From the IMG/VR virus record IMGVR_UViG_3300035157_000042, positions 1 through 22,323 of that record: 22,323 bases of DNA; one strand, 5' to 3'. The stretch comes from a virus. The translations under genes and the position numbers were made by a program. The notes beneath the pieces are model-generated. The model made no database searches. It was not told the DNA's origin and saw nothing but the letters and a program-made list of their open reading frames with translations. Shown here one piece after another: positions 5,764 to 16,321 of this stretch (the first letter of the stretch is position 1; each line of letters begins with the position of its first letter).

Positions 5764-6770
5764 GTTTTTTACAGGATGTAGTAAAGGAGATAGGTAATGA
5801 ATATGCTTCTCTCGTTAGTGATGGTGTTGCTGCTGGTGACACAAATAATTTTATCGACACAGGTAGTCACATCTTTAACGCACTTGTCTCAGGAAGCATC
5901 TACGGAGGTATTCCAGGGAATAAGATCACAGCTATTGCAGGTGAGTCAAGCACAGGCAAAACTTTTTTCTGCCTTGGTGTGGTACAGCATTTTCTCGAAT
6001 CTAATCCTGATTCTGGGGTTATTTACTTTGAGTCTGAGAGTGCATTAAGTAAACAGCAGATTGAAGAGAGGGGTATTGATTCTTCTCGTATGATGATTGT
6101 ACCTGTTACTACGGTACAAGAATTTAGAACACAATCTATCAGAATATTAGACAAATATTTAGAACAACCTCCTTCATCGAGACAACCCTTAATGTTTGTT
6201 TTAGATTCTCTTGGTATGTTATCAACCAGTAAAGAGGTTGAGGACAGTGAAGCAGGTAAAGATACACGTGACATGACTAGAGCACAAGTTGTCAAGTCTA
6301 TCTTTAGAGTTCTAACTCTTAAATTAGGTAAAGCAAACGTCCCAATGTTGGTTACCAATCATACATATGATGTAGTAGGATCTTATATCCCCACAAAGGA
6401 GATGGGAGGTGGCAGTGGACTCAAATACGCAGCAAGCACAATCATATATCTATCTAAAAAGAAAGAGAAGGATGGTAAAGAGGTTGTGGGAAATATTATT
6501 AAATGCAAAACAGCTAAAGCTAGATTAACTAAGGAGAATAGTGCCGTTGATGTACGACTTTATTATGACACAGGACTTGACAAGTATTACGGACTATTGG
6601 AATTGGGTGAGAAGCATGGAGTATTTGAACGGAAGGGAAACCGCATTAGTATTGGTGGCTCTAATGTTTATCCTTCTGCAATTCTTGCCGACCCAGAAAA
6701 ATACTTCACCCCCGAACTAATGCAAGCATTAGACGAATGTGCATCCAAGGAGTTTCGCTATGGTAACTAA
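5760..6770 (+). CDS. uvsX: UvsX RecA-like recombinase
   Basis: A 336-aa RecA/UvsX-type recombinase. Walker A is GESSTGKT at 61-68, and Walker B is the hydrophobic strand LMFVLDS at 144-150. ESES at 91-94 occupies the usual catalytic-glutamate region at the end of the next strand. The region around [32 protein letters not shown] matches the RecA core strands that follow. It would coat ssDNA and catalyse strand exchange for recombination-dependent replication and repair, working with gp43 and gp41 encoded around it. The length is somewhat below T4 UvsX (about 390 aa), as is common in marine relatives. The end overlaps the ribosome site and start of the next oxygenase gene by 11 bases. Confidence 0.95.
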
Positions 6771-10361: not shown

Positions 10362-10564
10362 AAGAAGATGCTATTTCAGATGCTTGGTCAGAGTCTAGAA
10401 TAGATAAACCAAAGAAGTATAACATGCCTATTTGGTTAACTGATGAGGATTTTGATTATATTGTTTTAGCACTTTGGAAGTGTCGTAAGAATTCTGGAGA
10501 ACCTAAATGTACTGAGTTATATAATAGATTTAAACAAATACAAGACGCTGCTAAGAATAAATAA
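10358..10564 (+). CDS. Small conserved-type hypothetical protein
   Basis: A 68-aa protein starting at ATG 10358 inside the stop of the oxygenase gene (ATGA). It has an acidic start (MKEDAISDAWSES), then PIWLTDEDFDYIVLALWKCRK and a helical basic end (ELYNRFKQIQDAAKNK). No domain is recognised. Two cysteines (in WKCRK and PKCTE) are too few for a typical zinc finger by themselves. It is the last gene of the accessory run. Its stop codon lies within the late promoter box at 10556-10563, so it is not part of the late unit that follows. Confidence 0.7.
   Translation: MKEDAISDAWSESRIDKPKKYNMPIWLTDEDFDYIVLALWKCRKNSGEPKCTELYNRFKQIQDAAKNK
10556..10563 (+). promoter_or_regulatory. T4-type late promoter box overlapping a stop codon
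   Basis: The octamer AATAAATA fits the late promoter consensus NATAAATA of T4-like cyanophages (T4: TATAAATA). It overlaps the stop codon of the 68-aa gene. Transcription would start about 10 bases downstream, just before the ribosome site CAGGAG (10567-10572), with ATG at 10588. The following genes look late/structural, which agrees. Confidence 0.65.
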
Positions 10565-10587: not shown

Positions 10588-11916
10588 ATGGCAATAAAAC
10601 AAGAGAGTGATCTACTTAAATTAAACAGAGCACTTCAAGAATTTCAAAGGAATGCTAAGGACATTGATGATGTTGAAGAACAAGTCAAGGTAAAACAAGC
10701 TGGAAAGACTGTAGTAAAATATAATGTTATGACAACCGACAGAGAAACTTCTCGTGATCGGGTAGAGAAAGCATTGAAGAAAGAGTTTAATGGGTTAGTT
10801 AAACGTGAGCAGCTATCTGTATCATCGATGGCATGCACGGTTATAAATGCAAAGGATAAGATGAAATATGTTTTCATCTATAAACCAACTAAGGGTGGTA
10901 TGTCACAGACCACTTTGAATTCTTCTATAACAGAATTATATCCATGCATAGCATTTGAAAAAGGTATAAAGATTACTGCAGCATCAAAGATGGAGGTTAA
11001 AAAATTCCATCAAAAGATAGAGGCTGCATGGAGTAAAGATTTGAAATGTTTTGTGAATGATAAGGATGCATTAGCAGGTAGAGATTTTATTGCTAATGCT
11101 GAGAGAGGTAAGTTTGAGGAGAAGATTAAGAACGCAATTAATATATTGAGATGGTTACAAGGAGTAAATAGAAAGCACAAGATTAAGAAAGTTGTTTGGG
11201 GTTATCGTGCTAAACCCAAAGGCATTATGAGTAATCATCCTGGAGATATATTTGTACAGTTTATGAATGATAAGTGGTTAGGTGTTTCACTTAAAGCAGG
11301 TAGTGAAAAAACTAATGAACCAAAACTAAACACGTATGTCAAACCTATCTTTGATTTTTTTGATAAGACTAAAGATTATGATAAGATAAAAGATAAATTA
11401 TGGCCTCAGTATATGGAGATACCTGGTATAGAAGAGGAGGATAAGTCTAAGTGGGGTAAGAATGATCTAGCATTAAAGACATATGTATTTGAAAAAGCAG
11501 ATAGGGAATCTGAGAAGAAGTATAATGAATTGTATGATAAGAATCTTGCAATCATTAAAGATGAATTGATTAAACTTATAGGTGATCCAAAGAATTTTCA
11601 GAAAGCAAAGGCATGGATTACAGAAAAGGTAGCACAACAGCAGCAAGATGTACCTTTAGTTGTTGTTAAGGCTACTCAATATACAGCAAGAAGGGATAAG
11701 GCAAGTGATCTTCTTGTTGAAGCAGTTGCTGCTGTTAAAAAAATCAGTGCAGAGATAACACAGGTGGGTGGAAAGCAAGCCTTTACTGTCAAATTAGTTG
11801 ATGGTACTAAAGTTAAGATGGATTTTACTGCTCGTACTAATAAGGTGGGTGCTAATCATAAGATGGGACAGTTTACTAACCTTGCGGTGAAATTTAATAA
11901 GGTCAGCCAGATATAG
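10588..11916 (+). CDS. 442-aa protein with possible PD-(D/E)XK nuclease-like core
   Basis: Not a family I can name with certainty. The N-terminal half (1-130) is mixed alpha/beta and basic. It contains YVFIYKPTKGGMSQTTLNSS (94-113), a glycine/threonine-rich loop, followed by ITELYPCIAF. The middle has HPGDIFVQF (217-225) and WLGVSLKAGS (230-239). D220 followed 16 residues later by K236 in a strand, preceded by S-L, resembles the D...(E/S)xK arrangement of PD-(D/E)XK nucleases. A long charged helical region (260-345) and a C-terminal beta-rich domain (395-442) follow. The start ATG lies 24 bases after a late promoter box. A weak ribosome site (CAGGAG) is about 15 bases upstream, which is long spacing. 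The nuclease call is inference from one motif pair; this could also be a structural or terminase-related protein. Confidence 0.55.
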   Translation: MAIKQESDLLKLNRALQEFQRNAKDIDDVEEQVKVKQAGKTVVKYNVMTTDRETSRDRVEKALKKEFNGLVKREQLSVSSMACTVINAKDKMKYVFIYKPTKGGMSQTTLNSSITELYPCIAFEKGIKITAASKMEVKKFHQKIEAAWSKDLKCFVNDKDALAGRDFIANAERGKFEEKIKNAINILRWLQGVNRKHKIKKVVWGYRAKPKGIMSNHPGDIFVQFMNDKWLGVSLKAGSEKTNEPKLNTYVKPIFDFFDKTKDYDKIKDKLWPQYMEIPGIEEEDKSKWGKNDLALKTYVFEKADRESEKKYNELYDKNLAIIKDELIKLIGDPKNFQKAKAWITEKVAQQQQDVPLVVVKATQYTARRDKASDLLVEAVAAVKKISAEITQVGGKQAFTVKLVDGTKVKMDFTARTNKVGANHKMGQFTNLAVKFNKVSQI

Positions 11917-11984: not shown

Positions 11985-12929
11985 ATGCCAAACAAGCACC
12001 TTCGTCATCCAGAAGATTCAGTTTTACACGGAAGGAAGGTAGTTTGGGAGACACTAAAAGAATTGGTTAAGGCAACGAGGTTGTCTGTCAAATGGGATGG
12101 AGCACCTGCTATAGTATGGGGTACTAACCCTGCTAATGGACAGTTCTTTGTTGGTACTAAGTCAGTCTTTAATAAGAGAAGAGTATTAATAAACTATACT
12201 GTTGATGATATAACAACTAATCATAAAGGACCAGTGGCAGATATTCTTAAGTTGTGCTTGGAGTATCTTCCTAGAACTGATAAGATCTATCAGGGAGACT
12301 GGATAGGTGTTGGTATGTCAGGTAGATTGTACCAACCTAATACTATTGAGTATCTCTTTCCAGAGGAGATTCCGCAGAAGATAGTTGTTGCACCTCACAC
12401 AGAGTATACTGAGGTCACTCCTGAAGCGGAGGGGAAGATTGGTTTAACCTTAGAATCAACTGAGGATTGTTTCTTTGTTGATACTAACAATGCAACTATC
12501 AAGCCACCACTAGGATGGAGACACTTGATACAATTCATCATTCCTGTATGGAAGATGAAAGCACCTGTTAAGAAGAAGGGATATAATTATTATTTGATGG
12601 AGATTTCTAAGCACATAAACAGTTATGTTTCCGTGGGTTGGTGGGAAGATATGTCTGCTGAACAGATGTACTCTGAGTTAGATGATAAATATAAGAGTGA
12701 GGTTAATGTCTATACCTTTAAGGTGTGGTTTATGATCCTCGAATTGAAGCAGCGTCTACTAGATGCAATTGTGGTACATGGAAATGTTGAATGTTTTATC
12801 AATGGAGATCCCTCCAAGCATGAAGGGTTCGTGATTGTTTCTGAAAATCCATACAAGATTGTAGATCGTTGGGAATTTAGTAAAGCAAACTTTAATCTAG
12901 ATAGAAATTGGTCCTATGAAGAAGTTTAG
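11985..12929 (+). CDS. Ligase-like covalent nucleotidyltransferase (KxDG), putative
   Basis: A 314-aa protein showing the motif order of the DNA/RNA ligase and capping-enzyme superfamily. K36-W-D-G39 (LSVKWDGAPAIVWG) is motif I with the lysine that would take AMP. YQGDWIG (102-108) sits where motif III (GE/GD) is expected. HEGFVIVS (279-286) is motif IV (EGxV). YKIVDRWEFSKANF (290-303) gives motif V and a basic end. Length and spacing fit a compact RNA-ligase-like enzyme, with no OB domain seen. The family appears in cyanophages as an uncharacterised conserved protein (I believe DUF6267). The reaction, whether nucleic-acid joining, repair or protein AMPylation, is not known. Its last 14 bases overlap the next gene, itself a nucleotide-transfer enzyme, which suggests a shared job. 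Confidence 0.72.
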   Translation: MPNKHLRHPEDSVLHGRKVVWETLKELVKATRLSVKWDGAPAIVWGTNPANGQFFVGTKSVFNKRRVLINYTVDDITTNHKGPVADILKLCLEYLPRTDKIYQGDWIGVGMSGRLYQPNTIEYLFPEEIPQKIVVAPHTEYTEVTPEAEGKIGLTLESTEDCFFVDTNNATIKPPLGWRHLIQFIIPVWKMKAPVKKKGYNYYLMEISKHINSYVSVGWWEDMSAEQMYSELDDKYKSEVNVYTFKVWFMILELKQRLLDAIVVHGNVECFINGDPSKHEGFVIVSENPYKIVDRWEFSKANFNLDRNWSYEEV

Positions 12930-14055
12930 TGCATTCTTGAAGGAGGCTAAAAAGTCTCTTGCTGCACAGGAAGCTGAAAAGTTGCAACTTACCCATGTAG
13001 GTTACGGTAAATTTGCCGATGTTAGAGGCAACGTAACTCATATGAGTAAGGCAGGTAAACTTATTAAACTTAGTCCTCAAGAGATAGCAAATCAAAATGG
13101 AACTGCACCCCCAGAAGAAGAAGGAGGCCAGACTCAGAGCGATCAAGGTGCGATATCTATTACTTTCGGAAGATTTAATCCACCTACTATTGGGCATGAA
13201 GCTTTAATTAAAAAGGTAGCACAATCAGGAAAGGGTGGTGAGTATAGAATCTATCCTAGTAGGACAGAAGATCCTAAGAAGAACCCATTGGATGTTGGTT
13301 CTAAGATAGGTTTTATGAAGCAAGCATATCCAGATCATGCTGATGCTATACAGAATAATGAAGAGATGAGAACTATATTTGATGTGCTTAAAACTGTTGG
13401 AGATGAGGGATATAGTGAGGTTAATATAGTAGTTGGTGGTGATAGAGTTAGTGAGTTTACTTCATTGGCAACAAAGTATAATGGTAACCTTTATAATTTT
13501 GATCAGATCAATGTAGTATCTGCTGGTGATCGTGATCCAGATGCGGATGGTGTAGAAGGTATGTCTGCATCTAAGTTGCGTAAAGCTGCTGCTGATAATG
13601 ATGGTGCAACCTTTGTTAAGGGACTTACTAAAGCAATGAGTCCTGAGAATCAGGAGAAGTTATTTAAGGCAGTGCAGAAGGGTATGCAAGTACAAGTTCA
13701 AGAGGATTTTAGTGAACTTTCTTATCAATTATATGAGATTGCACCTAAATTAGATGAGAAGGGTTTGAGAGAGGCATACTTCGATGGCGAAATATTTAAA
13801 GAAGGATCAATTGTCGAGAACATCAACACAGGGATCCTTTCTAAGATTGTTAGTCGTGGTAGCAATTACGTCATCTCTATTGATGAGCATGATAATATTT
13901 TTCGTGGGTGGTTAAAGGATATTATAGAAGTTAAGGATTATAGTGACCCATCTAGTCGTGAGTGGGGTACTGATAGTCTTACTAATTACGTTAAGAAACT
14001 TACTCCAGGAGAGTTTGTAAAGAAGATAAATAAAAAGGACAAGACCTCTCAATAA
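12916..14055 (+). CDS. HIGH-type nucleotidyltransferase with capsid-targeting-like N-terminus
   Basis: A 379-aa, multi-domain protein. Residues 1-14 (MKKFSAFLKEAKKS) resemble the capsid-targeting sequence of T4 internal head proteins (MKTYQEFIAEA), with a gp21-type cleavage site L-K-E|A after residue 10. A small domain follows (about 22-53: LTHVGYGKFADVRGNVTH). The enzyme core (78-230) has GRFNPPTIGH at 85-94, the HxGH-type motif of NMN adenylyltransferases and cytidylyltransferases, VGGDR at 173-177, and GMSASKLR at 215-222, matching their SxTxxR motif. A C-terminal SH3/KOW-like barrel (about 290-340) contains GSIVENINTG and ending FRGWLKDIIEV. It would transfer a nucleotide to a phosphate acceptor such as NMN; the true substrate is unknown. 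It may be packaged in the head. The GATAAATA box near its end probably serves the next gene. Confidence 0.8.
   Translation: MKKFSAFLKEAKKSLAAQEAEKLQLTHVGYGKFADVRGNVTHMSKAGKLIKLSPQEIANQNGTAPPEEEGGQTQSDQGAISITFGRFNPPTIGHEALIKKVAQSGKGGEYRIYPSRTEDPKKNPLDVGSKIGFMKQAYPDHADAIQNNEEMRTIFDVLKTVGDEGYSEVNIVVGGDRVSEFTSLATKYNGNLYNFDQINVVSAGDRDPDADGVEGMSASKLRKAAADNDGATFVKGLTKAMSPENQEKLFKAVQKGMQVQVQEDFSELSYQLYEIAPKLDEKGLREAYFDGEIFKEGSIVENINTGILSKIVSRGSNYVISIDEHDNIFRGWLKDIIEVKDYSDPSSREWGTDSLTNYVKKLTPGEFVKKINKKDKTSQ
14025..14032 (+). promoter_or_regulatory. Possible late promoter box before the charged protein
   Basis: GATAAATA matches NATAAATA and lies 24 bases upstream of the ATG at 14057, the same distance as between the box at 10556-10563 and its ATG. 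It lies inside the 3' end of the preceding coding region (Ile-Asn-Lys codons), so a chance match in AT-rich DNA is possible. The equal spacing raises its likelihood. Confidence 0.45.
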
Positions 14056-16297: not shown

Positions 16298-16321
16298 TAG
16301 GGGTTGTAACCCCTATTTTTT
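16298..16321 (+). terminator. Rho-independent terminator upstream of the late promoter
   Basis: TAGGGG (16298-16303) pairs with CCCCTA (16310-16315) around a TTGTAA loop, in which TT and AA can pair further. It is followed by six T (16316-16321). The last T is also the first base of the TATAAATA box, so termination and re-initiation elements are fused. Confidence 0.88.

Follow-up and report, generated by a model that had tools for sequence, protein, structure and literature searches.

What do two overlapping genes, each apparently encoding a nucleotidyl-transfer enzyme, contribute to infection by a cyanophage-like virus, and does either product travel in the phage head? We addressed this question in a viral fragment of 22,323 bases (positions 1 to 22,323 of record IMGVR_UViG_3300035157_000042; hereafter, the window), whose gene order is that of the marine T4-like cyanophages (Kyanoviridae). 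Both open reading frames lie on the plus strand, where an earlier note on this DNA had placed them. The first (11985..12929, +) encodes a 314-aa DUF6267 protein (T4-like GC 71), annotated as a ligase-type covalent nucleotidyltransferase from its PF19782 match, predicted model, and fold matches. The second (12916..14055, +) encodes a 379-aa HIGH-type adenylyltransferase-like partner (GC 190), annotated from PF01467, phrog_395, and its PPAT/NMNAT fold. They overlap by 14 bases (12916..12929, +), through which their translation is likely coupled. Both frames are under purifying selection (dN/dS 0.10-0.31); thus, neither is a chance reading frame. Judged by DUF6267 and the partner, P-SSM7 is the closest described phage, with 62% and 67% identity, respectively. 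We consider it somewhat probable that the pair constitutes a late, head-linked two-enzyme module, in which the tagged partner would be injected with the DNA and DUF6267 would work via a Lys36-nucleotidyl intermediate. This reading draws on what was observed here, from sequence conservation and predicted folds to the linkage and fusion of the genes, the tag, and the match to a late promoter, and on the presence of the partner in virions as reported in other papers.

The first frame matches Pfam DUF6267 (PF19782) with an E value of 2.8e-88. The family is widespread, occurring in more than 500 viral contig stretches and in at least 471 phage records (471 of the 50,697 covered by a sequence search). 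Conservation, scored on 123 nonredundant homologs in window numbering, bears out the ligase-like motifs I, III-like, IV, and V that the earlier note had read in this frame. Motif I, K36-W-D-G (12090..12101, +), contains the predicted nucleotidyl-lysine, and K36, D38, and G39 are invariant in all 123 homologs, in agreement with the supposition that relatives would share the lysine. The same lack of variation applies to H8, D11, G46, K59, F62, K64, N119, Y123, H138, T139, N212, and K255, as well as to D105, the acidic residue of the motif III-like Q103-G-D105 (12297..12299, +). Motifs IV and V (12822..12869, +), placed by homolog conservation and comparison with the Rnl1 profile, are nearly as constrained: E280 and G281 of motif IV and K291 of motif V are kept in 122 of 123 homologs, and R295 is kept in all 120 homologs having that position. 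Additionally, an invariant HxxHxED at the N terminus could be an extra nucleotide-binding site.

An AlphaFold2 model of DUF6267, made with an alignment of 100 sequences (mean pLDDT, 92.8; pTM, 0.88), puts lysine 36 in a predicted fold of the ligase/capping type, as the earlier note had anticipated; its correspondence to the catalytic lysine of the fold matches was assessed through the spacing of the motifs and the ranges that aligned. With VIA-align, the best match was Naegleria RNA ligase (Z 8.5 over 173 residues at 3.7 A) and T4 RNA ligase 1 reached Z 7.8, values to be read against the Z of 7 to 8 typical of models without a clear match, which 8.5 slightly exceeds. All of the 50 PDB matches listed by this method were polynucleotide ligases or capping-type enzymes and their close relatives. 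Foldseek also ranked DNA and RNA ligases first among PDB structures, weakly (E 0.03). Among predicted viral structures, the nearest named entries beyond the DUF6267 family itself were mostly RNA ligases, and several proteins named cytidyltransferase-like also matched the model. Single-sequence and profile searches against PDB chains found no relative, a Pfam scan of 100 DUF6267 members showed no ligase family among the 25 commonest families listed, and PADLOC assigned no defence family.

A direct comparison with T4 RNA ligase 1 (gp63) and the Naegleria enzyme helps to delimit the assignment. Common to these ligases and DUF6267 are the KxDG motif, a downstream lysine (K119 in T4, K59 here), the acidic motif III, the EG of motif IV, the motif V lysine, and the predicted core fold. 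Aligned by eye, T4 K99-EDG...SK119 corresponds to K36-WDG...TK59, NFE159 to QGD105, and PTN165RIVLxY to PN119TIxY123, and hhalign, whose alignment with T4 RNA ligase 1 extends over no more than 23 columns, sets motifs IV-V in register (probability, 3%; E 0.014). Unlike the T4 enzyme, DUF6267 carries Asp at the motif III position occupied by Glu, has no clear counterpart of the N- and C-terminal parts of Rnl1, and possesses a helical insert before motif IV in addition to the N-terminal HxxHxED. Furthermore, the catalytic residues of T4 RNA ligase 1 are invariant across the Rnl1 family alignment, including the second motif V lysine (K242), which is absent from DUF6267 (Val or Ile at position 293, R295 being conserved instead). 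The conserved motifs and the predicted model support DUF6267 as a member of the polynucleotide ligase/capping superfamily of covalent nucleotidyltransferases; with K242 not kept, membership in the Rnl1 family is not supported.

The second frame encodes a capsid-tagged enzyme of the ADENYLYLTRANSFERASE type. It matches PF01467 at 21.5 bits (cut-off, 21) and phrog_395 at 1e-115, and its relatives were found by sequence search in 535 of 50,697 phage records. The nucleotide-binding signature FGRFNPPTIGH (13165..13197, +), with the (H/T)xGH motif as GRFNPPTIGH at residues 85-94, and the ISSTxxR-like C-terminal signature MSASKLR (residues 216-222; 13561..13581, +) are conserved across 42 homologs, in which G93, H94, S217, K220, and R222 are invariant. 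Judged by the predicted core (residues 79-256; pLDDT mostly near 90), the partner is a PPAT/NMNAT-type adenylyltransferase by fold: PPAT and NMNAT tie at Z 13-14, and the search does not separate NMN, nicotinate mononucleotide, and phosphopantetheine as the substrate. The match to TIGR00482 (17.6 bits) is far under its cut-off of 112. The partner thus has the (H/T)xGH and ISSTxxR-like motifs and the fold in common with PPAT (CoaD) and NMNAT/NadD over residues 77-260, and it differs from them in the capsid tag, the extra N- and C-terminal regions, and an identity of only 12-17%. From the earlier description of an HxGH-type adenylyl/cytidylyltransferase, the HIGH-type and adenylyl parts stand on motifs and fold, and the cytidylyl part probably falls, the database name "cytidyltransferase" being probably a mislabel in view of the PPAT/NMNAT match of the model. 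PADLOC returned marginal Lon-type matches only. The C-terminal region of the partner (window 13770-14055) stands alone as a gene in MED4-213 and, apparently, also in Syn1 (L051:5766-7073; L257:4733-5011), and such separate pieces carry the database names ribonucleotide reductase or cytidyltransferase, probably wrongly.

The putative link of the partner to the phage head lies in its first ten residues, MKKFSAFLKE (12916..12945, +), a capsid-targeting sequence identified by its match to T4 IPIII, with predicted gp21-type cleavage after Glu10. The N terminus MKKFSAFLKE/A agrees with MKTYQEFIAE/A of IPIII at every mutation-tested position, which substantiates the capsid-targeting-like N terminus previously suspected here. 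In T4, mutations revealed that positions 4 and 7 matter for targeting and positions 8 and 10 for processing, and gp21 cleaves after L/I-x-E (PMC9026906). The partner meets the T4 pattern of an aromatic residue at 4, F/Y at 7, L/I at 8, and E at 10. A loose version of the pattern matches only ipII and ipIII among 336 T4 ORFs (missing ipI and alt) and one of the 27 window genes, with a chance rate per protein of 0.13%, compared with 0.006% for the strict register. The loose tag is present in 43/43 partners from the cyanophage clade and 61/71 from the C48C1-like clade, compared with 51/2062 of the remaining ORFs that reach 100 aa or more. The window DUF6267 begins with MPNKHLRHPED, which is not a capsid-targeting sequence, and the loose tag is likewise missing from DUF6267 throughout the cyanophage clade (0/46) and a clade of solitary DUF6267 genes (0/74), in contrast to 70 of 79 C48C1-like loci. 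On this pattern, both proteins are predicted to be packaged in the C48C1-like clade. Some loci of that clade (L137:7257-7628, L143:3503-3874) also encode, between the two genes, a small basic protein with the capsid tag MLSFKQFISE.

The presence of the partner (GC 190) in virions is already published. It was detected in S-SM1 but not in S-PM2 (PMC3037559), and also in S-SCSM1 (PMC9602691), S-SZBM1 (PMC9146016), and S-CREM2 (PMC10665884). All four virion-detected partners have the tag, and the S-PM2 version, which is fused to DUF6267, is without it. DUF6267 itself is not among the reported virion proteins of S-SZBM1 (_141) or S-CREM2 (gp87) in the same two papers. In S-SCSM1, the protein encoded in the slot upstream of the block (_90) is annotated as a virion protein and is tagless; consequently, the tag would not be the sole route into the virion. 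It is important to consider that the authors of two of the virion proteome papers regard co-purification as possible, so the lists may include co-purified protein.

The late expression previously ascribed to these genes is supported, at the level of sequence, by a T4-type late-promoter core, ATAAATA (10557..10563, +), which precedes the ATG of the block's first gene (10588) by 31 nt. The window holds 7 copies of this motif versus 9 expected, which is not above chance, and thus only its position is informative. The position recurs in distant phages: in S-SZBM1, S-SCSM1, S-PM2, and EniLVp02, ATAAATA precedes the corresponding block or the partner by 26-35 nt, and P-SSM7 and S-SM1 have CTAAATA at the corresponding site. 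The motif is absent before the solitary DUF6267 genes of S-SM2 and P-SSM5, the two members checked. The gene that opens the block in the window (phrog_2496, GC 533 slot; 10588..11916, +) encodes 442 aa with, by eye, a PD-(D/E)XK-like look (GDIFVQ...GVSLKAG). A profile of P-SSM7 GC 533 matches S-SCSM1 _90, from the same slot, with an E value of 2e-37. Across loci (window 10588-11916; L143, L144, L150, L152, L153, L211), this slot is variable. The families that fill it are numerous and unrelated; several show D...(S/E)xK motifs resembling PD-(D/E)XK, and some bear the capsid tag, which in its strict form occurs in 7/57 slot proteins of the C48C1-like clade. The PD-(D/E)XK reading was set aside as not convincing, with the regular expression matching 10/21 families versus 6.8 expected in shuffles; no credible family emerged when slot proteins were scanned against Pfam, and two of them had no match among PDB chains.

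The two genes also keep company, as the earlier note had presumed. DUF6267 and the partner are adjacent in three distant groups, namely cyanophages, the C48C1-like clade, and Vibrio phage EniLVp02. Most loci of the clade to which the window belongs have the 14-base overlap, as does S-SM1; the genes also overlap in EniLVp02, and most C48C1-like loci have a spacing of about 350-550 bases. In S-PM2, DUF6267 and the partner form a single 591-aa ORF (S-PM2d138), for which LN828717 was used because record NC_006820 is frameshifted, and PHROG 455 covers both proteins. A 728-aa fusion in metaG-MbCM1 was discarded as a possible assembly frameshift, given an intact MKKFSAFLSEA start at the junction. The partner was present in 19/19 searched records with DUF6267, including cases in which the genes are far apart, and T4 has neither; as these records were picked for DUF6267 (except T4, and S-SCSM1, picked for the partner), the count tests mainly one direction. 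The solitary clade comprises at least 74 loci, tagless and away from the partner in the records checked; its DUF6267 neighbors are often a helicase and small ORFs, and no kinase or NMNAT was recognized by eye among the commonest ones. In locus L025, DUF6267 is close to that of the window (dS 0.26) and the neighboring partner gene is far (dS 1.46), which indicates separate allele exchange and that the two are not strictly co-inherited. EniLVp02 additionally has the partner enzyme domain fused behind a UvsW.1 domain (L054:5071-5958), annotated as a DNA helicase.

Several of these observations weigh against a joint module: a Z of 8.5 barely above the no-match range, the Foldseek E value of 0.03, the loss of K242, the tagless window DUF6267, the solitary clade, the separate divergence in L025, the DUF6267 proteins unreported in S-SZBM1 and S-CREM2 virions, and possible co-purification. 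A real but less than probable alternative is that the genes share only a late transcript, the partner being injected and DUF6267 serving as a cytoplasmic ligase in late replication or DNA repair that never enters the head. The absence of the tag from DUF6267 in the cyanophage and solitary clades, the two virion lists, and the independent exchange in L025 all favor it, but the S-PM2 fusion, the adjacency across three distant groups, and the tag on most C48C1-like DUF6267 proteins argue for a closer tie. A quite improbable explanation, in our view, and a less likely one than a shared transcript, is an NAD module, in which DUF6267 would use NAD and free NMN, and the partner, as an NMNAT, would rebuild NAD against NAD-depleting host defences. 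Phages do carry NAD systems (PMC7824862, PMC12774641), NMNAT is among the partner's fold matches, and the HxxHxED segment may offer the extra nucleotide site; nevertheless, PPAT ties with NMNAT, the TIGR00482 score is low, and among the window ORFs scanned, none was identified as a gene for Nampt, Adps, Namat, or Nudix.

Slightly less credible still is that the whole block is injected cargo, with the variable upstream protein acting as a nuclease whose damage the conserved ligase and adenylyltransferase repair or control. The diversity of the slot families, their occasional tags and D...SLK-like motifs, and the annotated S-SCSM1 virion protein are consistent with this scenario, but the motif is not clearly commoner than in shuffles, certain slot genes clearly have a different identity, and the nuclease look comes from sequence only. 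Finally, DUF6267 could be an assembly factor with a retained ligase fold, like T4 gp63, as T4 rnlA is annotated as both an RNA ligase and a tail-fibre attachment catalyst and the window block has a late promoter. The invariant catalytic motifs of DUF6267 and the late motif missing in two solitary-clade members make this highly unlikely.

Under the late, head-linked module that we favor, one late operon would supply two nucleotidyl-transfer enzymes working together. The first ten residues of the partner would target it to the prohead core, a gp21-type protease would clip it after Glu10, and the clipped enzyme would be packaged and then injected along with the DNA. DUF6267, probably a stand-alone nucleotidyltransferase domain most like RNA ligases, would attach an NMP to Lys36 and then pass it on. 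Both would most likely act as infection begins: DUF6267 would seal or adenylate the ends of nucleic acids, the substrate that we favor because of the ligase fold, and the partner would produce or recycle an adenylated cofactor, for example NAD. The tagless DUF6267 of the window may ride with the partner or act in the cell; its travel in the head is plausible in the C48C1-like sister clade and conjectural for the window. A wider generalization, that tailed phages package and inject a dedicated kit for processing nucleic-acid ends, in which a new RNA-ligase-like enzyme is coupled through an operon or a fusion to an adenylyltransferase supplying or recycling the cofactor of that enzyme, together with a variable nuclease-like partner, is speculative, and we regard it as unlikely.

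Known systems resemble the pair in part. Like T4 IPII/IPIII and Alt, which are head packaged and injected, the partner has a ten-residue targeting peptide, in the IPIII register (F/Y4, F7, L/I8, and E10); the cargo here would be an adenylyltransferase, with a ligase-like protein in the sister clade, whereas an anti-restriction protein and an ADP-ribosyltransferase are among the known cargo of T4. The RNA-repair sets of phages, in which an RNA ligase accompanies the Pol-beta NTase RlaP and PNK (PMC7824862), similarly encode a ligase with a nucleotidyltransferase, but the partner belongs to the HIGH superfamily rather than Pol-beta, and the DUF6267 pair appears late and head linked, with no PNK identified alongside. 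In the literature searched, no paper named DUF6267, cyanophages and capsid targeting came together only in a T4 head review, and we did not find the ligase assignment of DUF6267, the way the tag agrees with detection in virions, or the fusion, which are new here. Linking this ligase assignment to a core cyanophage virion enzyme offers a concrete test of cyanophage injection into ocean picocyanobacteria. This conserved gene pair of ocean cyanobacterial viruses, sometimes fused, suggests an unrecognized set of enzymes that would reach the host as infection starts, and the capsid-tag match provides a sequence rule for predicting further injected proteins in marine T4-like phages.

Elsewhere in the window, a tryptophan halogenase-like flavoenzyme (793-2301; PF04820, E 8e-96) adjoins a 2OG-Fe(II) oxygenase (182-796), and three further oxygenase-like genes lie at 6739, 9173, and 9831, the last under the Pfam cut-off. 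A terminator-like site on both strands, located between 16293 and 16363, contains a perfect 7-bp hairpin with T-tracts at 16298-16315.
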